A stretch of 64,000 nt of DNA from an uncultured Desulfobacteraceae bacterium (GCA_913060875.1 CAJXSL010000001.1:1-64000); one strand, 5' to 3'; positions 49,146 through 64,000 are shown, counted from the stretch's first letter. The notes: generated from the sequence alone by a model not told the origin. Translations and numbers: made by a program.

Positions 49146-51107
<1,962 letters not shown>

Positions 51108-51118
51108 GCTGTCTCCTT

Positions 51119-52057
51119 TTAGAAATTGACCTTGTCCAATCCTTTAAGCCCCAGGATCTGTCGGGCTTCCGCAGGTGTTGCCGTGGCCACCCCCAGTTCA
51201 CCGGCAATGCGTTTGAGCTTGGCCACCTGCTCGCCGCTGTTTTTGGCCAGGGTGCCTTTTTCGATGAAAAGGTTGTCTTCAAGGCCCACCCGGGCGTTGC
51301 CGCCCATGAGCAGGGCTTGGGTGGTCATGGGAAACTGGGCCCGACCGGCCGCACAGACCGACCACTGGAACTCACCGATCTGCTGGCGGGCGGTCTGTAC
51401 CAGATAGACCAGGTTTTCCACGGTGGCCGGAATGCCGCCGAGAATGCCCATTACGAATTGAAGGTAAACGGGCTTTTGGACCTGGCCGGATTGAATCAGG
51501 TAGGCCAGGTTGTTGATCATGCCCACGTCATAGATTTCAAATTCCGGTTTGGTTGCATAGCGCCCCATGAGTTCCGTGAATTTGCCTATGGTGTAGAAGG
51601 TGTTGGGGAAGATGAAATCCTCCGTGCCGGTCAGATATTTCTTTTCCCAGTCGAATTTCCACTGCCCTTCGAACTTGGGGGCTACATGGAACAAGGCGAA
51701 ATTAATGGATCCGGCATTCAGGGATGCCAGTTCCGGTTCGAGGGTGGATACGACTTTGGCCCTGTTTTCAACCGTATCGCCGATGCTGCCGCCGGTGGTC
51801 ATGCACAGAATGATATCGCAGCGTTTTTTGACCTCGGCGGCCACTTCCCGGAAAATCGCCTGATCTGCTTTGGGCATGCCGGTTTCCGGGTCGCGCACGT
51901 GCAGGTGGGCCACGGCCCCTCCAACTTCGTAGACGCTCATGATGTCGTCGATGAGCTGCGTCGGGGTGATCGGCAGATACGGCGACATGGTCGGGGTATG
52001 GATGGCGCCGGTTACGGCGGCGGTGATGATGGCCTTGTGCGCAGGTGGCTTGCCCAT
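51119..52057 (-). CDS. Beta-keto acid cleavage enzyme (BKACE, DUF849)
   Basis: 312 residues. BKACEs condense a beta-keto acid with acetyl-CoA to give acetoacetate and a new CoA ester, using zinc. The zinc histidines are in AHLHVRD (residues about 46-51), the conserved Glu/Asp in GGNARVGLEDN, and the N-terminal ITAAVTGAIHTP fits the family. Known members cleave 3-keto-5-aminohexanoate (lysine fermentation), dehydrocarnitine and others. No lysine aminomutase or carnitine gene is nearby, so the natural substrate is open. Confidence 0.92.
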   Translation of the reverse strand: MGKPPAHKAIITAAVTGAIHTPTMSPYLPITPTQLIDDIMSVYEVGGAVAHLHVRDPETGMPKADQAIFREVAAEVKKRCDIILCMTTGGSIGDTVENRAKVVSTLEPELASLNAGSINFALFHVAPKFEGQWKFDWEKKYLTGTEDFIFPNTFYTIGKFTELMGRYATKPEFEIYDVGMINNLAYLIQSGQVQKPVYLQFVMGILGGIPATVENLVYLVQTARQQIGEFQWSVCAAGRAQFPMTTQALLMGGNARVGLEDNLFIEKGTLAKNSGEQVAKLKRIAGELGVATATPAEARQILGLKGLDKVNF

Positions 52058-52329
52058 AGGATTTTTCCCTTTCCTGTGATGAAGTGATTGGTGGAATGAA
52101 TTTGTCGGTCAAAGGCCTCGGCGGGTGCAGCCATGCCGTTCGGTGGCCGGCCCCCACAGGCCCATGGAAGGTCTACCCCGATCGAATGGGGCTGAGGGTG
52201 GTGAGCAGGATTTGGTTTTCGTGAGAGGGTTGTGGATTCAATGTCTTCTCCGGCCATGCATTTTAGTTAATGTCCGTCCCGAACGCTCCGTTCCGTTTCC
52301 TCGATGGACTGGCTATAGGGCCAATCCCG
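52058..52329. other. Spacer between the XRE-cupin regulator and BKACE genes
   Basis: No gene or repeat recognised. It should contain the promoter of the BKACE-ligase-transporter run. Confidence 0.4.
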
Positions 52330-52887
52330 TCAGGGGACATAGATGACGTCCAGACATTTAACGTCCCGACCACCGGCGGGCAGTGCGTAATGCGGGATAC
52401 TGGAGTCGTAATAGACACAGTCCCCGGGTTCCAGGAGGTATTCCTTGTCTCCATGGATAAACCGCATGGTGCCTTCGAGTACCAGCACCATCTCCTCGCC
52501 GTCATGTTGAAAAATGAGGCTTTTCTCGGAGTCGGCCGGAATGGTCAAGATGGATGGTTCCATCTTTTTATTGGGATATTTATGGGCCAGCGTTTCATAC
52601 GAGTACCCGAAAGTGACGCCGGCTTTGGCCATGAATTTACGCTCCGCCTTTTTGACGACGGAGCAGCGGATCGCCGTATTTTCTTCCCCGAAAATCTGGG
52701 AGAGATTCACTCCCAACGCTTTGGCAATGACGATCAGGGTCGACACGGGGGGGGATTTTTTTGAGTTTTCAACTTTGGAGAGATAGCCTTTGGTGAGACC
52801 GGCTCTGGCCGCCAGGGCTTCAAGGGTGAGTTTCCGTGCCAGGCGAAGCGCCTTGATGTTTTTCCCGATCCGGGCTTCCGGAATCAT
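52330..52887 (-). CDS. XRE-family regulator with cupin sensor domain
   Basis: 185 residues from ATG 52887, preceded by AAGGGG; a GTG at 52893 is possible. An N-terminal helix-turn-helix (LTLEALAARAGLTKGYLSKVEN) is followed by a C-terminal cupin (about 105-183, HDGEEMVLVLEGTM, LEPGDCVYYDSSIPHYA). This class controls catabolic genes and senses small carboxylates or amines via the cupin. It heads the BKACE run and is divergent from the amidase, both plausible targets. Confidence 0.92.
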   Translation of the reverse strand: MIPEARIGKNIKALRLARKLTLEALAARAGLTKGYLSKVENSKKSPPVSTLIVIAKALGVNLSQIFGEENTAIRCSVVKKAERKFMAKAGVTFGYSYETLAHKYPNKKMEPSILTIPADSEKSLIFQHDGEEMVLVLEGTMRFIHGDKEYLLEPGDCVYYDSSIPHYALPAGGRDVKCLDVIYVP

Positions 52888-52982
52888 TGGCACCCCTTGT
52901 TGTCGGAGAATGGGATTTGTCGCCGTTGCCGCGACGCCTGCCCAAGCGCCCCGGGCGATCGTTCCGCCTTGCGGCCATCTAA

Positions 52983-53392: not shown

Positions 53393-54799
53393 ATGACGTC
53401 ACTCGCGTACAAACCGGCCTGGGAATTGGCCGACCTCATGGCCAGGAAAGAAATCTCCCCAACAGAAGTCATGCGCGCTGCCCTGGAACGCATCGCGCAG
53501 GTCAACCCCGACCTGAATGCCTTTGTAGCCCTGCGAGCGGAGGAAGCCCTGGCGGAAGCAGAGGCCCTGACCGCGAAAATTTCCAAGGGCGAAAATGTGG
53601 GGCCCCTGGCGGGCCTGCCCCTGGGGGTCAAGGATCTGGAAGATACCGCCGGCATGGTGACCAGTTATGGTTCCATTCCGTTCAAGGACAACATGGCCCG
53701 CAGGGATTCGATTCAGGTGGCCCGGCTCAAGGCGGCCGGCGCCATCGTGGTGGGCAAGACCAATGTGCCGGAGTTCGGATTCACCGGCTTCACCAAAAAC
53801 CGGCTGCACGGCATCACGCGCAACCCCTTCAACCGCGAACGGACGCCGGGCGGCTCCAGCGGCGGGGCGGCGGCGGCCATTGCCGGCGGATTGGTCCCCC
53901 TGTGCACCGGCTCCGATGCCGGCGGTTCCATCCGCATTCCGTCCTCCTACTCGGGCTGCTTCGGCCTCAAACCTTCCTTCGGGCGGATACCGGCCGGCCC
54001 GGCGCCCTTTGTGAGCACCAGCGCCATGATTGTCATGGGCCCGCTGACCCGCTGCGTGCGGGATGCCGCCCTGTATATGGATGCTGCCATGGGGCATCAT
54101 CCGGCGGATCCCATGTCGCTGCCGGCCCCGGCCCGGCCCTACCTGGCGTGCATCGATGAATTGCCCAAAAAGCTCAGGATCGCCTTCAGCCCCACACTGG
54201 GATACGCGGTTGTTCAAAAAGAGATCATGGCCTGCGTGGAAAAAGCGGTGCAGGCGTTTGAGGACATGGGCCATCAGGTGGAATTATGGCCCGGCAGCCT
54301 GCCCGATACGGGCGATTTCTGGGGGGCGTTGATCGCCACGGATATTTACGCGCAACTCGAGGGCGTTCTCGAAAAGGAGCGGGACCAGATCGGCCGAACC
54401 CTGGCGGCTGTCGTGGATCAGACTGCTGCGATGACCGTTGCGCAACTGACCGCCATCCAGCAGCTGCGGGCCAAATTGAACGCCGAACTGGAAAAGCTGT
54501 TCGATAGGTTCGACCTGCTTCTGACGCCCACCATGCCGACGGAGGCCTTCGCCGCCGGAGGGCCCCCGCCATCCGTCATCGATGGCCAGCCCATTCCCCT
54601 TTTAGGGGCGGTTGCCTTCACCTATCCGTTCAATTTTTCCGGCCATCCGGCGGCATCGGTGCCGGCCGGGCTGACCCCTTCCGGCATGCCGGCGGGCTTG
54701 CAGATCGTTGCCCCCCGGCACCGGGACGACCTCGTTCTGCAAGCGGCTTACGCTTACGAGCGCGTCAGGCCCTGGGATGGCCACTGGCCGTTATGTTAA
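53393..54799 (+). CDS. Amidase signature family amidohydrolase
   Basis: 468 residues from ATG 53393 (AAAGGAG upstream). The Ser-Ser-Lys triad is readable: Lys in GVKDLED, the structural Ser in GGSSGGAAAA and the nucleophile in SDAGGSIRIPSS. It hydrolyses a carboxamide to acid plus ammonia. Substrate is not predictable; the enzyme lies between two carboxylate-catabolism modules and could supply an acid to either. Confidence 0.92.
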   Translation: MTSLAYKPAWELADLMARKEISPTEVMRAALERIAQVNPDLNAFVALRAEEALAEAEALTAKISKGENVGPLAGLPLGVKDLEDTAGMVTSYGSIPFKDNMARRDSIQVARLKAAGAIVVGKTNVPEFGFTGFTKNRLHGITRNPFNRERTPGGSSGGAAAAIAGGLVPLCTGSDAGGSIRIPSSYSGCFGLKPSFGRIPAGPAPFVSTSAMIVMGPLTRCVRDAALYMDAAMGHHPADPMSLPAPARPYLACIDELPKKLRIAFSPTLGYAVVQKEIMACVEKAVQAFEDMGHQVELWPGSLPDTGDFWGALIATDIYAQLEGVLEKERDQIGRTLAAVVDQTAAMTVAQLTAIQQLRAKLNAELEKLFDRFDLLLTPTMPTEAFAAGGPPPSVIDGQPIPLLGAVAFTYPFNFSGHPAASVPAGLTPSGMPAGLQIVAPRHRDDLVLQAAYAYERVRPWDGHWPLC

Positions 54800-54929: not shown

Positions 54930-54958
54930 TTGACATCGCCAAAGTGGTATGACAATAG
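54930..54958 (+). promoter_or_regulatory. Predicted promoter with overlapping FadR-type operator
   Basis: TTGACA at 54930-54935 provides a -35 box; the -10 is weak (GACAAT at 54951 or CAATAG at 54953). Between them, TGGTATGACAA at 54945-54955 fits the GntR/FadR-family pattern TNGTNNNACNA exactly. A repressor here would block RNA polymerase, consistent with autoregulation by the next gene. Confidence 0.65.
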
Positions 54959-55104
54959 ACTTCATACCTCAGACCGACGGTGGTTATGAGAGGCTGCAAT
55001 CCGCCATGGAAACGGCATTTATGCCCCGTCGGAGACTCTGAAGGGCCCATTGCATTTTGTTTTTCAGAATACCCTCTGCTGAAATATTTCTGGAAAGGAG
55101 CGCC

Positions 55105-55872
55105 ATGGCCAATTTCAAGTCCCTGAAAAAACCACCCCTTTCCTTTGAAGTCGAACAGGCCATCAAGCAGGCGATCATTGATCGTGTCTATACCCCGGGC
55201 CAAAAGCTGCCTTCCGAACGGGAGTTGGTGGACCAGTTCCAGGTCAGCCGCGTAACGATTCGCGAGGCCTTGCGCAATTTAAAGAGCAGCGGGTTGATCG
55301 AAATTCGCCGGGGCATCAGTGCCGGGGCTTACGTTTCGGAGCCCAATTCGGACCCCATTACCGAAAATTTCCAGAACCTCATCGAACTGGGTCATGTGGA
55401 CATATCCCACCTGATCGACGCCCGTCTCTACTTCGAGCCCCGGGCGGCGGAAATTGCTGCCAAATACCGCAGTGCCGAGGACGTGGACCATTTGCGCCAG
55501 GTCCTGGATCAGGCTGAGGGCCAGTTGGGGGCATCCCGGAAAACCGCCCGCCTCACCAACGTGTCGTTCCACTGCGAAGTGGCCAAGATCACCCGCAATC
55601 CCATTATCATTTTCATTACCGAATCCATTACCCAGACCCACTCGGCCATGATCATCGAGTGGACCCATACCAAGCTCAAACGCCACGATATCCATCAGTT
55701 TATCCAATGGCACCGGGAGATTCTCGACGCCATTATCAAGCAAAATTCGGCCGAGGCCTATGAAATGACCCGCCGTCACCTGTTGGAAACCTATTTGGCT
55801 TATTGCCGTGTCATCCCCAAGGAACGGGCCCGGGAGATCGATCGCCGGATTCGGCAGGATTATGATGTCTGA
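55105..55872 (+). CDS. GntR/FadR-family regulator (FCD domain)
   Basis: 255 residues from ATG 55105 with AAAGGAG upstream. The winged HTH (residues about 12-80) has PGQKLPSERELVDQFQVSRVTIREAL, of which LPSERELVDQFQVSR is diagnostic. The FCD domain (about 95-235) carries probable metal ligands Asp in LIDARLYFEP and His residues in FHCEVAK and later helices. FadR-group regulators respond to carboxylates such as lactate, glycolate or glucuronate. It heads the TAXI-TRAP/oxidase operon. Confidence 0.93.
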   Translation: MANFKSLKKPPLSFEVEQAIKQAIIDRVYTPGQKLPSERELVDQFQVSRVTIREALRNLKSSGLIEIRRGISAGAYVSEPNSDPITENFQNLIELGHVDISHLIDARLYFEPRAAEIAAKYRSAEDVDHLRQVLDQAEGQLGASRKTARLTNVSFHCEVAKITRNPIIIFITESITQTHSAMIIEWTHTKLKRHDIHQFIQWHREILDAIIKQNSAEAYEMTRRHLLETYLAYCRVIPKERAREIDRRIRQDYDV

Positions 55873-55969
55873 GGCCGGGGGAAGATCGGCGAGAATCGGT
55901 TTGCCGCCTGATGATGGAACTTCAAGACGGCATTCGCAACGACACTCAACAGCAGAAAAGGAGATCGTC

Positions 55970-56389
55970 ATGCCCAAGATTCGAATGATTACATTTATTG
56001 CCGGTGTTGCCCTGGTGATGGCGGCATTGAGCCTCGGTGGGTGCGCTTCCACAAGTTCGGCCGTGCCGGCCGACACGTTTGCCCAGAATATCGTCTACGA
56101 GATCGCTCCTTCGGCCGCGCTCACCAATGTTGCCTTCGGCATCAAACCATACAAGGGCACCGATCACCTGCACCTATCGTTGACGGTGAAAAACATTTCT
56201 GCTGAAACCAAGCGTTTCCGGGTCAACATCTTTCTGCCGGACGGCACCTCCGGGGGCGGGCTCTATCCCCGCAAGGTCAAGGGCGATGTCACCGGCGTCA
56301 AGGCCGGCGAAGAGCATACCCGGGAATTCCCCATGCTTTCCAAACAGTTGCCCAGTGGGTTCACCATCATTGTGAAGGAACTGGGCTAA
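55970..56389 (+). CDS. Small lipoprotein of unknown function
   Basis: 139 residues from ATG 55970 (AAAAGGAG upstream). The signal peptide ends in the lipobox LGGC. The mature part is a single beta-rich domain of about 110 residues (LHLSLTVKNISAETKRFRVNIFLPDG, of which TVKNISAETKRF is a landmark), resembling DUF1425/YcfL-type periplasmic domains. It sits between the regulator and the TAXI binding protein. Function unknown. Confidence 0.8.
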   Translation: MPKIRMITFIAGVALVMAALSLGGCASTSSAVPADTFAQNIVYEIAPSAALTNVAFGIKPYKGTDHLHLSLTVKNISAETKRFRVNIFLPDGTSGGGLYPRKVKGDVTGVKAGEEHTREFPMLSKQLPSGFTIIVKELG

Positions 56390-56502
56390 CCCGGAACACG
56401 GCCGCCCTGTTTAGGGCCTGAGGCCACGGGGATGATGGCAGCATCCTGACAGCGTGGCCGGACACATCATCAATTGGGCGTATTTTCATTAAGGAGGATA
56501 CC

Positions 56503-57495
56503 ATGTCGGCAAAACGGCTTATGCAATTTTCACGTCTTCTTGTCTTTGGGTTAATGGCATTGTTTCTCATCGTTCCCTCATCCGCTACGGCAATTGAATT
56601 CGTCTCTTTCGGGACGGGCAGCCCGGCGGGCACCTATTATTTCCTGGGGGCCGGTTTCGCTTCCATGATCAACAACAATGTTCCTGGTGTACGGGTGGCG
56701 GCTGAATCCACGGCGGCGTCGGTGGAAAACTCCCGGCTGATGATTCGCGGCGAGATGGAAATGGGGTTGGCCTGCATGGGAACCCTGGCCGGCCTTAAAA
56801 AACAGGGCATGGATGTGGATAAAATCCGCCTGGTGGCCGTAGGCCACACCAGCGACGTTCACTGGATCGTCCGCAATGAGTCCAGCATCCAGTCCGTGGC
56901 GGATCTCAAGGGCAAGACCGTCGCGGTGGGGCCGGCCGGCAGCGCCACCCTCAATATCGTCTCCAAAAAACACCTCAATACCGGCTGGGGACTGACCCTG
57001 GAAGACTTTTCCCCCAAGTACCTCTCTTTCTCGGAAGTCACCCGCGGTCTTCGCGACGAGACCATCGACGCCGGCTTGATCTTCGCCGGGGCGCCTCTGG
57101 CGTCCGTGATGGAACTGGCCCGGGATATCCCCGTTCGGGTTCTCGAAATCAAACCCGATGAAATCGCCAAACTCAGAAGCGCTTACAGCAATGTGGTCCC
57201 CCTGACCATCCCGGCCGGGACCTACAACGGTATCGATCAGGACATCCACACCTACTGCTGTCCCCAGATGTGGCTGTGCCGCACCGACCTTTCCGAAGAC
57301 CTGGTCTATAACATGATCAAGGCGGTCTACGACCACCCCGAAGAGAAAAACGCCATTCATCCCATGGCCAAGATGTACAATCCCCAAAACGCCTTCCGGG
57401 GCGCACCGGGGGTGCCGGTGGGATTCCACCCGGGTGCCATCAAATACTACAAGGAAAAGGGCATCTGGGACAAACGTGCGGAACTCTATGAATAA
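56503..57495 (+). CDS. TAXI-family TRAP transporter solute-binding protein
   Basis: 330 residues with a Sec signal ending near ATA (residue 27). The mature N-terminus FVSFGTGSPAGTYYFLGAGF and the central segments NSRLMIRGEMEMGL and KTVAVGPAGSATLN identify the TAXI type. It binds a carboxylate in the periplasm and hands it to the permease encoded next. AAGGAGG precedes the start. Ligands of TAXI proteins are mostly unknown, with glutamate and C4-dicarboxylates among the few tested. Confidence 0.94.
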   Translation: MSAKRLMQFSRLLVFGLMALFLIVPSSATAIEFVSFGTGSPAGTYYFLGAGFASMINNNVPGVRVAAESTAASVENSRLMIRGEMEMGLACMGTLAGLKKQGMDVDKIRLVAVGHTSDVHWIVRNESSIQSVADLKGKTVAVGPAGSATLNIVSKKHLNTGWGLTLEDFSPKYLSFSEVTRGLRDETIDAGLIFAGAPLASVMELARDIPVRVLEIKPDEIAKLRSAYSNVVPLTIPAGTYNGIDQDIHTYCCPQMWLCRTDLSEDLVYNMIKAVYDHPEEKNAIHPMAKMYNPQNAFRGAPGVPVGFHPGAIKYYKEKGIWDKRAELYE

Positions 57496-57610
57496 AACTG
57501 GATGGCGGCGGCCCGCCCTTGTGCGAGTACGCCGCCGTTGGGGCTGAGATGCGGGCCGGCTGGGCCGGTCCGCCAATAGTCGGTTGCAATCGGGGTCAAC
57601 GGGGTCATTT

Positions 57611-59512
57611 ATGGAAAAAAATAGCGCACCGCCCGCCCAGCGTACACCATGGCTCGTTCGAACGCTGGCCATTGCCATGAGTCTTTTTCAATTGTATACG
57701 GGCCTGTTTCAACTAACGGCCATGAACCAGCGGGTTACCCATGTGACCCTGGCCCTGGTTTTGATTTTTCTGGTCTACGGTTTCGACCAGAAGAAGAAAA
57801 CGCGCATCGCCTGGCACGGTTATCTCCTGGCAGGCGTCGCCCTTCTCATGGGCATCTATGTCCTGGCCAACTGGTTCAAAAAAATCGGCGCCATCGGCAT
57901 GTCGCCACCCTGGTACGAACTGGTGATGGGTACGGTCTTCATCCTTTTCTGTATCGAGGCGGCCCGACGCACCCTGGGATGGATTTTCCCCATCATTGCC
58001 GTGGTGGCGATGGTGTATGCCCGCTTCGGGGAAATGCTGCCCGGTTTTCTGGCCCACCGCAATTACTCTTTCGAGCGTATTGTCAGCAACATGTTCATCA
58101 CCACCGACGGCGTCTTCGGTATGCTGGCCGGTATTTCCGCGACCTACATATTCCTGTTCATTCTCTTCGGCGCTCTGCTACGCGCCGCCGGTGGTGGTGA
58201 ATTCTTCATCAATCTCTCGTTTGCCCTTTTCGGCCATGTCCGTGGGGGGCCGGCCAAGATCGCCGTTGTGGCCTCCTCCCTTTTCGGGATGCTGTCGGGC
58301 AGCGGGACCGCCAACGTGGCCGGCACCGGGCAGATTACCATTCCGCTGATGAAACGCAGCGGCTACAAACCCCACTTCGCCGGTGCGGTGGAGACGGTGT
58401 CCAGTGCCGGAGGGCTTTTGATGCCGCCCATCATGGGCAGCGCGGTTTTCATCATCATGGAAGTCCTGGGGGTCAACTACGTCACCATCATGAAGGCCGG
58501 GGGGCTGGCGGCCATCCTTTACTACGTCGGTCTTTTCCTGATGATCGACATCGAAGCCCAGAAGCTGAACATGGCGGGCATGCCCAAGGATGAACTGCCC
58601 AGCCTGAAGCAGACCCTCAAAGAAGGGTGGTTTTTTTTCATCCCGATTTTCGTGCTGATTTTTTTCCTGGTCTATTCCAAGGTGTCGGTCACCCGGGCGG
58701 CCTTCTGGGGTACGATTTCGATCCCCCTATGCAGCCAGTTGGCCGGATCCGGCCGGCGCATGACCATCCGCCAGTTTTTCGACGGCCTGGAGCAGGGGGC
58801 CCTGACGGCGCTGCCCGTGGTGGCCATCCTTTCCCTGGGCGGCGTGGTACTGGGGATGATCACCCTGACCGGCTTGGGGTTGATGATGTCGGGGCTGCTG
58901 ATCAAGATGTCCGGCGGCCATTTGCTGACGCTGTTGGTCCTCACCATGATCGCCTCCATTATCCTCGGCATGGGGGTGCCGCCGGTGGCGGCCTACATCG
59001 TCTTGTCCATCCTGGTGGTCCCGGCCCTGATCAAGCTGGGCGTCTATCCCCTGGCGGCCCATCTCTTCGTTTTTTATTTTGCCACCATTGCCGGTATTAC
59101 CCCGCCCATGGCACCGGATGCCTTTGTGGCGGCCGGTATTGCCGACGCCCCCATGATGCGCACGGCCTTTACAGCCTGCCGTCTGGCACTGGTGATCTTT
59201 ATCGTGCCCTACATGTTTGTCTACAACAACGCATTGCTGCTGATCGGCAGTCCGGGACAGATCGTCCAGGTGTGCATCACCTCTTTTTTCGGGGTGCTGG
59301 CCCTGGCCTGCGCCGCCCAGAATTACCTTGGCGGCAGGCTGACCATTGTCCTGCGGCTGCTTCTTTTCGCGGCCGGCGGGGCGTTGATCTATCCCGGTTT
59401 GGTAACGGACCTGGCGGGCCTGGCCGTGGTGACGGTATTGCTGTTCGTGCGGGTGCCCGAACTGGTGAAACGTTTCACCGTCGATCTGTTCCATCGGGAG
59501 AAAACGGCATGA
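57611..59512 (+). CDS. TRAP transporter permease, fused DctQM (4TM/12TM) type
   Basis: 633 residues from ATG 57611. The small (Q) part occupies about residues 18-150 and the large (M) part the rest. The M-domain signatures are SGSGTANVAGTGQITIPLMKR, of which GSGTANVAG is diagnostic, the SSAGGLLMPPIMGS motif, and GMGVPPVAAYIV. The fused form is the usual partner of TAXI binding proteins. It uses the sodium or proton gradient to import the carboxylate. Confidence 0.95.
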   Translation: MEKNSAPPAQRTPWLVRTLAIAMSLFQLYTGLFQLTAMNQRVTHVTLALVLIFLVYGFDQKKKTRIAWHGYLLAGVALLMGIYVLANWFKKIGAIGMSPPWYELVMGTVFILFCIEAARRTLGWIFPIIAVVAMVYARFGEMLPGFLAHRNYSFERIVSNMFITTDGVFGMLAGISATYIFLFILFGALLRAAGGGEFFINLSFALFGHVRGGPAKIAVVASSLFGMLSGSGTANVAGTGQITIPLMKRSGYKPHFAGAVETVSSAGGLLMPPIMGSAVFIIMEVLGVNYVTIMKAGGLAAILYYVGLFLMIDIEAQKLNMAGMPKDELPSLKQTLKEGWFFFIPIFVLIFFLVYSKVSVTRAAFWGTISIPLCSQLAGSGRRMTIRQFFDGLEQGALTALPVVAILSLGGVVLGMITLTGLGLMMSGLLIKMSGGHLLTLLVLTMIASIILGMGVPPVAAYIVLSILVVPALIKLGVYPLAAHLFVFYFATIAGITPPMAPDAFVAAGIADAPMMRTAFTACRLALVIFIVPYMFVYNNALLLIGSPGQIVQVCITSFFGVLALACAAQNYLGGRLTIVLRLLLFAAGGALIYPGLVTDLAGLAVVTVLLFVRVPELVKRFTVDLFHREKTA

Positions 59513-59556
59513 AAGCGGACCGCTGCACTTTTGGGATAGAAAGAGAGAACGCCTGA

Positions 59557-60933
59557 ATGGATGCTGCATCAACCCGGGTTGAGGAACAACTCGTCGAAGG
59601 CCTCAGTGACCTGCGCTACGAAGACCTGGACGCGGACACCGTTATTTACTGCAAACAGCTGTTGATGGATACCCTGGGCGTGGCCTTCCCCGGCAGCCTG
59701 GCGCCGGGATGTGGGGAGCTTGTCGACCTGGTGCGGCATTGGGTCACACCGGAGGGTGCCCCGGTTCTCCTGCACGGGTTTCGGACAGCACCGCCCCAGG
59801 CGGCGCTGGCCAACAGCACCATGATGCATGCCCTGGATTTTGACGACACGCTGGATGCCTCGGCCCTGCATGCCATGGTGACGGCGTTGCCCGCCGCTCT
59901 GGCCGCGGCAGCGGTCCGCGGACCTGTCTCCGGTCGAGACCTCATCACCGCTCTGGTGATGGGAACGGATGTCACCGCGCGGATCAGTCTGGGGATCCAC
60001 CAGCCTTTGTCCTGGATTCGCACGGCCACCTGCGGCACGTTTGGTGCGGCGGCGGCAGCAGCCCGGATCTTAGGGCTGAAAGGCGAGCGACTGGCAGATG
60101 CTTTCGGCATTGCCTACAGCCAAACCGCCGGCAATGCCCAGGGACTGATCGAAGGCCGTCTGGTCAAACGCATGCAGCCGGGGTTTGCCGCCGCAGCCGG
60201 TGTCACGGCGGCTCTATTGGCCCAGCAGGGGATAACCGGCAGCCGCCGGTTCTTGACGGGGCGCTATGGGTATTACCGCCTCTATGAAAACGATGCCTTC
60301 GATCCCCAGCCGGTGGTAGCGGCCCTGGGCCGTCATTTCCATATCAAAGATTTGAGCATCAAACCCTATCCCTGTTGCCGGATGACCCATTCGTCCATCG
60401 ATGCGGCCCTGGATCTGCGCCGCGCGTTGGCGGACCCGGCCGCTATCCAACGGGTGGCCGTTACGGCGTCCGAGATGGTGACCACCATGGTGGGCAAACC
60501 CTTCGAACCGGGCGACAACCCCCAGGTGGACGCCCAGTTCAGCATCCCCTATACCGTCGCCTGTGCGCTGCTTCAGGGGGATGTCTTTCTGCCGGATTTC
60601 ACGGAAGAAGCCATCGACCGTCCGGCCATCCTGGACCTGGCGGACAACGTCACGGTGACGGCCGACAACCGGCTGCCGGCCAAAGATCTTTTCCAGGCCA
60701 CGGTCACGGTCCACGCCGCTGATCATGCCCCTCTCAGTCGGCAGATCACCCTGCCCCGGGGCAATCCGGGTAATCCGCTGGACTACGACCAGTGCCGCGA
60801 GAAATTCACCAAATGCCTCGCCTACAGCAGGCTTCCGGTGTTCGAGGCGCGGCGGGACGAGCTGCTGCGATGCCTTCAGCAGCTGGAAACACTGGACGAT
60901 ATCGGCCGCCTCCTGGCGTTGCTGCAGCCGTAA
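59557..60933 (+). CDS. MmgE/PrpD-family enzyme
   Basis: 458 residues with the family order: DTLGVAFPGS, ALDFDDTLDASALHAM, GTDVTARISLG, GTFGAAAAAARILGL, and KPYPCCRMTHSSIDAAL (key KPYPCCRMTH). Members include 2-methylcitrate dehydratase, cis-aconitate decarboxylase and iminodisuccinate epimerase. It lies 44 bases after the TRAP permease, so it probably acts on the imported acid. No citrate synthase or lyase partner is in view, which argues against the methylcitrate cycle. Confidence 0.92.
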   Translation: MDAASTRVEEQLVEGLSDLRYEDLDADTVIYCKQLLMDTLGVAFPGSLAPGCGELVDLVRHWVTPEGAPVLLHGFRTAPPQAALANSTMMHALDFDDTLDASALHAMVTALPAALAAAAVRGPVSGRDLITALVMGTDVTARISLGIHQPLSWIRTATCGTFGAAAAAARILGLKGERLADAFGIAYSQTAGNAQGLIEGRLVKRMQPGFAAAAGVTAALLAQQGITGSRRFLTGRYGYYRLYENDAFDPQPVVAALGRHFHIKDLSIKPYPCCRMTHSSIDAALDLRRALADPAAIQRVAVTASEMVTTMVGKPFEPGDNPQVDAQFSIPYTVACALLQGDVFLPDFTEEAIDRPAILDLADNVTVTADNRLPAKDLFQATVTVHAADHAPLSRQITLPRGNPGNPLDYDQCREKFTKCLAYSRLPVFEARRDELLRCLQQLETLDDIGRLLALLQP

Positions 60934-60963
60934 GATGACGAGAATTCCAGGAAGGAGAAGGGC

Positions 60964-61650
60964 ATGACGCCGATTCAGAAACTCTTCGATGCGGGGGCCG
61001 ACCAATACGACGGTCTGCGCCGCAAGGTGATTTACTGTTTTGACGATTTCTACGGCACCCTGTTGGAACTGATCCCCTTTGCACCCGAAGATACCTTCGC
61101 CTTCACGGATCTCGGTGCCGGAACCGGCCTGGTCTCCGCTCTGGTCACGGCCAATTTCCCCCAAGCGAAGGGCACCCTGATCGATCTTTCCCCCCGCATG
61201 CTGGCCAAGGCCCGGGAGCGGTTCGAGGGCAATCCGCACGTGACGTTTCAGGTGTGCGACTATGCCCAAGAGGACCTGCCGGGCCATCAGGACCTCATTT
61301 TGTCGGCACTTTCGATTCACCACCTGGCCGACGGGGAAAAAGAACTCCTGATGGCCAAACTTTTCCAGGCTTTGAAACCCGGCGGCTGCTTCATTCATGC
61401 CGAACTCGTGCGGGGAACCACACCAGCCACCGAAGATCGCTACCAGGAGCGCTGGCGGGCGCATCTTTCCCAGGCGAATATCGCCGCCGACGAACTTCAA
61501 CGGATATACGAACGCATGGCCCTGGATCAGACGGCCGGCCTGGAATACCAGATGACGTGGATGCGGACATCCGGGTTCACCGATGTGGACTGCTATTTCA
61601 AACACCACAATTTTGCCGTTTATGCCGGCCGGCGGCCGTCATCCCTCTGA
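60964..61650 (+). CDS. Class I SAM-dependent methyltransferase
   Basis: 228 residues. SAM motif I is FTDLGAGTGLVSALV, motif II LIDLSPRMLAKARERF, and the post-I acidic region VCDYAQEDLPGHQDLILSALSIHHL (key SALSIHHL). AGGAAGGAGAAGG precedes the start. It is inside a catabolic operon, 30 bases after the MmgE/PrpD gene, where a methyltransferase is unusual. It could methylate a pathway intermediate or detoxify one. Substrate unknown. Confidence 0.9.
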   Translation: MTPIQKLFDAGADQYDGLRRKVIYCFDDFYGTLLELIPFAPEDTFAFTDLGAGTGLVSALVTANFPQAKGTLIDLSPRMLAKARERFEGNPHVTFQVCDYAQEDLPGHQDLILSALSIHHLADGEKELLMAKLFQALKPGGCFIHAELVRGTTPATEDRYQERWRAHLSQANIAADELQRIYERMALDQTAGLEYQMTWMRTSGFTDVDCYFKHHNFAVYAGRRPSSL

Positions 61651-61678
61651 TTCCGGGAGATAATTGAAGGAGAACCGT

Positions 61679-63091
61679 ATGACAGAAGATCTGGAGAGGA
61701 TTGGCAAGGACCTTAGCGACCGGGTGGGCCGCGAGCACGTTTTTACCGATCGGCCCACGGCCCTTGCCTATGCCCGGGATACCATGCCCTGGGATGTGGA
61801 AGACCACCACATGCCGTATGCGGTCGTGCGGCCGGGCAATACCGAAGACGTCAGCGCCGTGCTCCGTTATGCCAGCGAGCGTGCCATACCGGTGCACACC
61901 CATGGCTCGGGAACCTCCCTGGTGGGCCTGGGGCGGCCCAAGACCAACGCCATTGTGCTGGACACGGGCCGGATGCAGGATCTGGCTATTTATCCCGAGC
62001 GGGGCTATTTCGAAGTCGGTCCGGGCATGCACATCGGCAAATTGCGCCAGGCACTGGCCCCCCATAAGGCGCTTTTGCCCGTGTTCCCGGGCAGCGAACC
62101 GGTGGCCACTATCGGCGGTTCCATTGCGGTGAACACCAGCGCCCATGCCGTGGACGCGACGTTGTGCAAACCGGGTGACTACGTGCTGGGGTTGGAGGTC
62201 GTACTCCCCGACGGCCAGATTCTCAACACCGGCACGGAGTCCACCCGTAAACCGGCCGGCATCGAAGCCACCAAATTCCTGGTGGGCTCCGAGGGCCTGC
62301 TGTGCGTCATCACCCGCATTCGCATGCGGTTGATACCCCTGCCCCGGACGGCCAACATCGTGGCCTACTACAAACGTACCGAAGACATTCTTGATGTCGT
62401 CATGGCCATGTATCGCCAGGGGCTGCCCACACCGCTGTTCTTCGAATACCTGGATGAAACCTCCTCGCGGATCGGCTTCGAAGCCGTGGGGCTGGCACCG
62501 CCGGTTGGAGCGGTGGCCATGATGAGCATGGGGTCGGCCACGCCGGAAGGCTGCCGGGCCAAAGCGGAGCTGTTTCTCGACTTCCTGGCCGGCGGCAATC
62601 CCATCGAGGCGCATATCGTGGAAGATAACGATGAATGGGGCAAGATATGGAGCAGCCGGGCCGAAGCCGGCAATTACTGCTACCGCCGTGGCTCCACCTT
62701 TGGCAGTGAAGTCACGCCGCGGGTGGACTGCCTGAAAACCGCATTTCTGGAAACCCGCGATGTCATCCTGAATCTCGACAGCTACCAGGGCAATGAATTC
62801 TATTCCTTCGGCCACATTGGTGCCCCCACAATACACGGGTATGCCTTCATCCCCTCCAAGGACATTCCCAACGAGGTCAAACAGGCCATCACCCTGGAGG
62901 TCCGGGAAAAAACAGAGGCCATCAACGTGAAATACGGCGGCTGCGGGGGGGAGTGGGGCCTAACGGCCCAACGGGCCGGGTTTCTGCAGAAGAAATACGG
63001 CCCGGTATACTATGATTTTCTCATGAAGCTAAAGAAGACCTTCGATCCCAACAATATTCTCAACCGGGGCAACCTGGAGGGCTGGCTGTGA
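61679..63091 (+). CDS. FAD-linked oxidase/dehydrogenase (GlcD/D-2-hydroxyacid type)
   Basis: 470 residues from ATG 61679 (AAGGAGAA upstream). The VAO/PCMH FAD domain has VVRPGNTEDVSAVLRYA, HGSGTSLVGLG and the GSEPVATIGGSIAVNTS region (key TIGGSIAVN). The C-terminal FAD-oxidase domain ends KKTFDPNNILNRGNL (key FDPNNILN). It should oxidise a 2-hydroxyacid such as lactate or glycolate, passing electrons to the Fe-S proteins encoded next. Start and stop overlap with the next gene by four bases. Confidence 0.93.
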   Translation: MTEDLERIGKDLSDRVGREHVFTDRPTALAYARDTMPWDVEDHHMPYAVVRPGNTEDVSAVLRYASERAIPVHTHGSGTSLVGLGRPKTNAIVLDTGRMQDLAIYPERGYFEVGPGMHIGKLRQALAPHKALLPVFPGSEPVATIGGSIAVNTSAHAVDATLCKPGDYVLGLEVVLPDGQILNTGTESTRKPAGIEATKFLVGSEGLLCVITRIRMRLIPLPRTANIVAYYKRTEDILDVVMAMYRQGLPTPLFFEYLDETSSRIGFEAVGLAPPVGAVAMMSMGSATPEGCRAKAELFLDFLAGGNPIEAHIVEDNDEWGKIWSSRAEAGNYCYRRGSTFGSEVTPRVDCLKTAFLETRDVILNLDSYQGNEFYSFGHIGAPTIHGYAFIPSKDIPNEVKQAITLEVREKTEAINVKYGGCGGEWGLTAQRAGFLQKKYGPVYYDFLMKLKKTFDPNNILNRGNLEGWL

Positions 63092-63429
63092 GGGACGACC
63101 AACAAATCCGCACCGACCTGCTGAAAGAGATCGCCAAATGCCGTGCCTGCCGGTTTTGCGTGGACGTCTGCCCGACCTACCAGGCCTCGGAGGGGGTCGA
63201 GAGCCTGTCCTCCTACGGCCGGTTGCAGATTACCAAATACCTGCTGAACGGCATGCTGGCTTTTGACGATCCGCTGACCTATTGCCTGTATAGCTGCCTG
63301 CAGTGCCGCCGCTGTGAAAGGATGTGCCACAGCAAGGGACAGGCCATCGACATCTGTGCGTTGATCCAGGCGGGGCGCGAGTTGCTGTCCGCCCGTCTGG
63401 CTGAAGGAGGCTCGCATGCAGCACTCTAA
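63088..63429 (+). CDS. Small 2[4Fe-4S] ferredoxin-type subunit
   Basis: 113 residues from GTG 63088, overlapping the previous stop. Two cluster motifs are present: CRACRFCVDVCPTY and CLQCRRCERMCHSKG. This corresponds to the N-terminal Fe-S domain of GlcF/HdrC-like proteins, without the cysteine-rich CCG domains. The next gene carries the rest of that architecture, so the usual fused subunit appears to be split in two. Confidence 0.9.
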   Translation: MRDDQQIRTDLLKEIAKCRACRFCVDVCPTYQASEGVESLSSYGRLQITKYLLNGMLAFDDPLTYCLYSCLQCRRCERMCHSKGQAIDICALIQAGRELLSARLAEGGSHAAL

Positions 63430-64000
63430 ACTGCTGGTTTCCCAGGCCCTGCGAACCCTGTGCGGCAACCTGGATCGCACCGGCGACCCCCTGGGCTTGA
63501 AACGCCCCTATTGGCACGATTGGGCCGATGGTTTCAATCTGCCGGCTCGGGGCGAAAATTTGCTGTTCACGGCCCGCATGTACCCCATGCTGCCTTACGT
63601 GGTGCAGGCCACCGAAATGACCGCGGCCGCCCGGCCCCTGTTACCGGCCTTGGGGGTCAAGGCCCTGGCCCGTCTGGCGGAAGTCGTCACGGCGCTGGCG
63701 GCCGAGCCGCTGCTGCGGATCAAGGCCCGCAAGGCCCAGGATATTCGCCGACGGGCCACCGACGCTCTGACCGGCATGGCCGCCGCCCTCCAGCGGAGCG
63801 GGCAGCATGTGGCTTATCTGGGGGAAGAGGAGCCCTACAGTGGTGTCCTCCTTTACGATCTGGGCATGGCCGAGGCGGTTCAGCCGGTTATCCGGAAAAC
63901 GGGTGAACGTCTTGCGGCCAGCGGGGCCCGCACCATCATCACCACCGACCCGCACACCACCTTCATGCTGAAGGAAATTTATCCTCAGCACCTTCCCGGA
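63416..64000 (+). CDS. HdrD/GlcF-like cysteine-rich subunit, N-terminal part (cut by window edge)
   Basis: 195 residues are visible from ATG 63416 (GAAGGAGG upstream); the frame is open at the edge. Landmarks ENLLFTARMYPMLPYV, YLGEEEPYSGVLLYDLG and TTDPHTTFMLKEIYP match the CCG-domain group of (Fe-S)-binding oxidoreductase subunits. Only one cysteine occurs in the visible part, so any cluster ligands must lie in the missing C-terminal half. It overlaps the ferredoxin gene by 14 bases. It probably accepts electrons from the FAD subunit. Confidence 0.78.
   Translation, partial: MQHSKLLVSQALRTLCGNLDRTGDPLGLKRPYWHDWADGFNLPARGENLLFTARMYPMLPYVVQATEMTAAARPLLPALGVKALARLAEVVTALAAEPLLRIKARKAQDIRRRATDALTGMAAALQRSGQHVAYLGEEEPYSGVLLYDLGMAEAVQPVIRKTGERLAASGARTIITTDPHTTFMLKEIYPQHLPG

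Follow-up and report, generated by a model that had tools for sequence, protein, structure and literature searches.

A conserved nine-gene TAXI-TRAP operon in Desulfobacterota and a candidate non-canonical route for a malate- or aconitate-like acid

Close described relatives of the locus considered here come from four protein systems. VcGluP and TtGluBP are TAXI-TRAP glutamate transporters (PMC11574862). The active-site residues of cis-aconitate decarboxylase (CAD) have been assigned roles (PMC12259180), and in the human enzyme H103A and H277A each abolish activity (PMC11814083). CysG and BelI (PDB 9FCD, 9FCE) are metal-dependent C1-carboxyl O-methyltransferases acting on 3-isopropyl- and 3-sec-butylmalate (PMC11408123). 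In human D-2-hydroxyglutarate dehydrogenase (D-2-HGDH), His434, His441, and Glu475 bind the metal, Arg386 binds the C1 carboxylate, and His476, the proposed base, ablates activity when mutated; these residues are conserved in D-lactate dehydrogenase (D-LDH) and GlcD (PMC7801405). Relatives of all four stand in a row at the end of a 64,000-nucleotide stretch of DNA, hereafter the window, from an uncultured Desulfobacteraceae bacterium (GCA_913060875.1, CAJXSL010000001.1:1-64000). Judged from its sequence, this nine-gene set is best read as a regulated operon that would take up a hydroxy- or oxo-di/tricarboxylate lacking an amino group and oxidize it in a non-canonical way.

The original prediction placed at least nine same-strand genes from position 55105 onward, and both its start and its strand proved right: nine open reading frames, all on the plus strand, span 55105-64426, with a putative promoter-operator just upstream. 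Domains were assigned with Pfam and NCBIfam, and the features are as follows.

54931-54968, plus strand: putative promoter-operator, TTGACA (54931-54936) and imperfect palindrome GTATGAC-N7-TTCATAC (54948-54968), from locus comparison
55105-55872, plus strand: GntR/FCD-family transcriptional regulator (Pfam GntR 2.7e-22, FCD 2.6e-16)
55970-56389, plus strand: small conserved lipoprotein, lipobox LGGC (no Pfam or NCBIfam family; predicted beta-sandwich)
56503-57495, plus strand: TAXI-type TRAP solute-binding protein (TIGR02122, 243 bits, cut-off 84)
57611-59512, plus strand: fused TRAP permease (TIGR02123, 647 bits, cut-off 321)
59557-60933, plus strand: MmgE/PrpD-family enzyme (Pfam; nearest solved relatives CAD and IDS-epimerase)
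60964-61650, plus strand: CysG/BelI-like class I S-adenosylmethionine (SAM) methyltransferase (His-His-Asp metal motif H119, H120, D188)
61679-63091 (alternative TTG start 61664), plus strand: GlcD-like FAD flavoprotein, GEWG for GEHG (Pfam; alignment)
63088-63429, plus strand: 4Fe-4S (Fer4_8) electron-transfer protein (Pfam)
63416-64000 in the window, gene to 64426, plus strand: CCG-domain protein (Pfam)

The advice to look beyond the window edge was well placed, as the ninth gene overruns position 64000 and, in the sequence read past the edge, stops at 64426. The next genes, encoding an EtfA fusion, EtfB, and an acyl-CoA dehydrogenase, are convergent, and the operon set therefore ends there.

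The arrangement is widely shared. With the MmgE protein as query, a scan of genome contigs found 39 loci, and all nine genes recur in the same order in 10 other Desulfobacterota loci (L035, L037, L038, L039, L040 of Desulfosarcina alkanivorans, L042, L043, L046, L051 of D. widdelii, and L066), far beyond what chance would give. The block from MmgE through methyltransferase, GlcD, and Fer4 to CCG is present in 15 loci. Outside the window genome, four close homologues of the methyltransferase (54-62% identity) were found among 58 relatives, and every one adjoins MmgE and GlcD genes; even in L057 and L069, where gene order is altered, methyltransferase and MmgE stay neighbors.

Comparison of upstream stretches across these loci also revealed the operator. 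The motif GTATGAC-N7-GTCATAC, with 0-3 changes and a TTGACA-like hexamer ahead of it, stands before the GntR gene of the window and of nine of the ten complete loci listed above, the tenth, L038, being without upstream sequence. At up to three mismatches the window site is the sole match to the pattern in the 5.88 Mb genome, and the pattern occurred in none of 100 shuffles of the window. Two other approaches were silent: a scan for sigma-70 consensus sites, which began some 250 bp ahead of the operator, ran beyond the last operon gene, and by its method misses poor -10 sites, found nothing above chance, and a count of exact palindromes, restricted to short arms and small spacers, did not pick up the operator. 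Because gene order is conserved and the palindrome before GntR is unique in the genome, the comparison supports the nine genes forming one regulated operon. Gene spacing, gene order, and the conserved operator point to co-transcription and coordinated expression, and the GntR protein presumably binds the palindrome. A second operator-like site, of the type GGTCTGAC-N7-ATCAGACC, lies between the TAXI and TRAP genes in three relatives (L035:6121, L046:4802, L066:6127); none was seen in the window.

The uptake genes belong firmly to the TAXI-TRAP group, as both the solute-binding protein and the fused permease score above their NCBIfam cut-offs, and they share with the glutamate transporters the TAXI family and the Tyr and Ser ligands, equivalents of VcGluP Tyr45 and Ser75 being kept in the alignment. 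They differ from VcGluP and TtGluBP where the amino group would be held: Gln93 is replaced by Cys in the window and by Cys, Ser, or Ala across close relatives, and Glu125 by Ser throughout these relatives, so that the protein falls outside the glutamate type, which has both ligands. Because these positions are replaced, glutamate is an unlikely ligand, and a non-amino carboxylate is favored. A further difference is the additional lipoprotein gene, which has 18 homologues in related loci and adjoins the TAXI gene wherever both are found. A fold search with its predicted beta-sandwich returned domains of large glycosidases (best Z 8.4), a likeness that may reflect just the common beta-sandwich.

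For the MmgE/PrpD enzyme, two known pathways were considered. Membership in the MmgE/PrpD superfamily would suit PrpD of the 2-methylcitrate (propionate) pathway, but the protein reaches 50.9 bits against the PrpD equivalog TIGR02330, for which 458 are needed, and methylcitrate synthase and lyase are absent among the operon genes, which leaves this assignment scarcely credible. The original prediction had likewise set the locus apart from known PrpD pathways, in part for want of methylcitrate genes, and none lies next to the operon. Solved CAD chains are the best sequence matches in the PDB, followed by IDS-epimerase and, more weakly, PrpD, and an aconitate/itaconate route with the enzyme acting as CAD has this match in its favor. 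In common with the CAD/IDS-epimerase branch, the window enzyme has both MmgE/PrpD domains, and alignment of the operon relatives with human CAD shows the equivalents of Asp93, Thr97, His103, Lys207, and Lys272 to be kept. The positions of CAD His159, His277, and Tyr318, by contrast, hold Ile, Cys, and Met in the window, and all three differ from CAD in the relatives. Because the essential His277 equivalent is Cys, also in the operon orthologues, the enzyme does not qualify as a CAD even with its His103 equivalent, and decarboxylation of cis-aconitate is very improbable. The window signature reads DFDDTLDxSALH / WIRTA / KRMQP / KPYPxCRMTH, of which W[IV]RT, KR[MLI]Q, and YPxCRMTH are common to the operon orthologues; unlike CAD and IDS-epimerase, the window enzyme has an arginine in each of three motifs close by (WIRT, KRMQ, CRMTH).

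The methyltransferase gives a hint of the substrate class. In sequence searches it matched 3DTN at 181 bits and CysG/BelI at 131-141 bits, every other family scoring 38 bits or less. Its AlphaFold model (pLDDT 91.5) superposes on 3DTN with Z 33.3 and on CysG with Z 31.9, a root-mean-square deviation of 1.3, and 39% identity; the next family, CmoA, follows at Z 25.7. With a constant numbering offset of 3 to CysG, the metal ligands H119, H120, and D188 are retained, R19 and R184 are the equivalents of Arg22 and Arg187, and Y15, I23, and F217 those of Tyr18, Ile26, and Phe220. The protein thus shares with CysG and BelI the fold, the His-His-Asp site, the arginines on the C1-carboxylate and C4 sides, and the gate tyrosine, so that its metal motif and two arginines are those of that family (PMC11408123). 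Its host differs, being an uptake and redox operon of anaerobes instead of a beta-lactone biosynthesis cluster. Because of this kinship, with the metal site and carboxylate arginines kept, a malate-like substrate is likely by analogy. The methyltransferase that the original prediction had noted within the operon is thus present, and can be refined to a relative of the alkylmalate carboxyl-O-methyltransferases, an identification that raises the likelihood of a substrate resembling malate or a tricarboxylate.

The flavoprotein, too, departs from its known relatives. Its nearest PDB relatives are LctD, glycolate oxidase, and D-LDH/D-2-HGDH, and with GlcDEF, D-2-HGDH, and LctD it has in common the FAD_binding_4 and FAD-oxidase_C domains, the His-His-Glu ligands (GHIGAPTIH and GGE, matching His434, His441, and Glu475), and Fe-S/CCG partners, and the WxxR arginine is also kept. 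These features would suit ordinary D-2-hydroxyacid catabolism, in which a plain GlcD, D-lactate, or D-2-hydroxyglutarate dehydrogenase oxidizes a D-hydroxyacid made by the MmgE enzyme through epimerization or hydration. Set against it is the catalytic base: GEHG has become GEWG, with Trp at the His476 position, in 30 of 30 aligned sequences, the most distant at 38-41% identity, and also in L091, whereas three flavoprotein paralogues from the window genome, taken as a control, carry GEHG. Mutation of this histidine ablates the human enzyme, and the GlcD equivalog is reached with 166 bits of the 568 needed, so this explanation is unlikely. Of the coupling originally proposed, TRAP uptake with an MmgE/PrpD enzyme and a hydroxyacid-type dehydrogenase, the transporter, the MmgE/PrpD enzyme, and, with its Fe-S partners, a flavoprotein of the GlcD type stand; the label of hydroxyacid-type dehydrogenase is not supported, the base His being Trp. 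The organization departs from the GlcDEF, D-2-HGDH, and LctD systems as well, in that a single flavoprotein is accompanied by two separate Fe-S and CCG proteins. A likeness to the benzene 'Magic' clusters of Desulfobacterota was also considered (PMC13101534, PMC13416013): they share the phylum, a GlcD-related flavoprotein, and an HdrC-like Fe-S partner. Identity with these clusters was set aside, as by their description they have two flavoprotein subunits and CoA-pathway neighbors.

Gene content around the conserved set varies among the loci. In 12 loci a creatininase-family gene separates TRAP from MmgE, a DUF1847 gene occurs in 10, an AcnX gene lies upstream in L062, and 2-oxoacid:ferredoxin oxidoreductase genes border the operon in L035 and L040, the last two observations counting in favor of the reading proposed below. 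A UroD-family gene follows CCG in seven loci (L035-L038, L044, L050, L066), three of which (L035-L037) also have a corrinoid protein gene. These last additions would fit a catabolism of methyl groups, in which a methylated compound is imported, the corrinoid and UroD-family proteins of the longer operons demethylate it, and the SAM methyltransferase serves that branch. Yet the window operon stops at CCG, a search run without a positive control found no UroD relative in the window genome, and the methyltransferase is of the carboxyl-O-methyltransferase type; we regard this account as improbable. The creatininase-family, corrinoid, and UroD-family additions suggest a wider precursor range in the relatives. 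Downstream of the operon in L036 (10072-12928) and L038 (13009-15821), an M24/creatinase-like gene is followed by a second, distant TAXI gene.

Taken together, we consider it about evenly balanced whether the locus is a single-transcript, substrate-inducible catabolic operon that imports and oxidizes a malate- or aconitate-like acid through a non-canonical MmgE-flavoprotein pair. The GntR/FCD regulator would repress the promoter, and binding of the imported acid or of a product to the regulator would lift the repression. The TAXI-TRAP system and its dedicated lipoprotein would import a di- or tricarboxylate that resembles malate or aconitate and has no amino group, and the MmgE/PrpD enzyme would shift a proton beside a carboxylate, in a dehydration, isomerization, or epimerization, using its His103 equivalent and two lysines. 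The flavoprotein may then hold the acid on its His-His-Glu metal site and, without the usual His base, oxidize the MmgE product, passing electrons to the Fe-S and CCG proteins and onward to the respiratory chain. The methyltransferase may cap a malate-like intermediate at its C1 carboxylate, for protection or for disposal of a dead-end isomer.

Several observations weigh against this account. Because the base His is Trp in the operon relatives, simple 2-hydroxyacid oxidation is itself in doubt. The methyltransferase has W164 at the position of CysG His167, a docking-predicted contact to the C4 carboxylate, and because of this replacement 3-isopropylmalate itself is probably not what it methylates. 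Four genomes of the same genus, with completeness of 80-97% and in three cases just 80-85%, are without the methyltransferase and GlcD, and the operon therefore seems accessory within the genus. Finally, in another genus of the family, L091 (1902-13268) has GlcD-Fer4-CCG with TAXI-TRAP and with AMP-ligase-like and acyl-CoA-dehydrogenase-like genes; its GlcD is 70% identical and keeps GEWG. Because this set sits without MmgE or methyltransferase in the stretch read, the redox module is not bound to a single substrate.

The flanks carry further genes. Directly upstream of the operator lies an amidase gene (53393-54799, plus strand), not found in the related loci searched, which could replace the relatives' creatininase-family gene or be unrelated. 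On the minus strand, 49146-52893 holds in a row an acetoacetyl-CoA-synthetase-like gene, a beta-keto acid cleavage enzyme (BKACE), and an XRE-cupin regulator. Beyond the operon, the EtfA fusion (L006:14693-16399, window genome C1 64692-66398, minus strand) joins an EtfA subunit to XRE helix-turn-helix and cupin domains and has near full-length homologues, at 51-58% identity, in six further genomes from the same order.

The earlier interpretation is, as a whole, partly supported. A literature search, with subscription papers beyond its reach, found no orthologous operon already assigned to a substrate; such an operon would, according to the original prediction, have refuted it. More tentatively, the locus may represent an anaerobic route, as yet undescribed, that handles an acid resembling malate or aconitate: a base-less GlcD flavoprotein and an MmgE enzyme with a rebuilt site would share one substrate, and a CysG-like carboxyl methyltransferase would serve catabolism. 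It offers directly testable predictions: a malate-type methyl ester, a flavoprotein working without the usual base, and a single operator. GEWG marks a subgroup of GlcD-like proteins, for which annotation as glycolate oxidase needs evidence. The recurrence of the set in Desulfobacterota, many of them known from metagenomes only, would mark an unassigned carbon source for these anaerobes.

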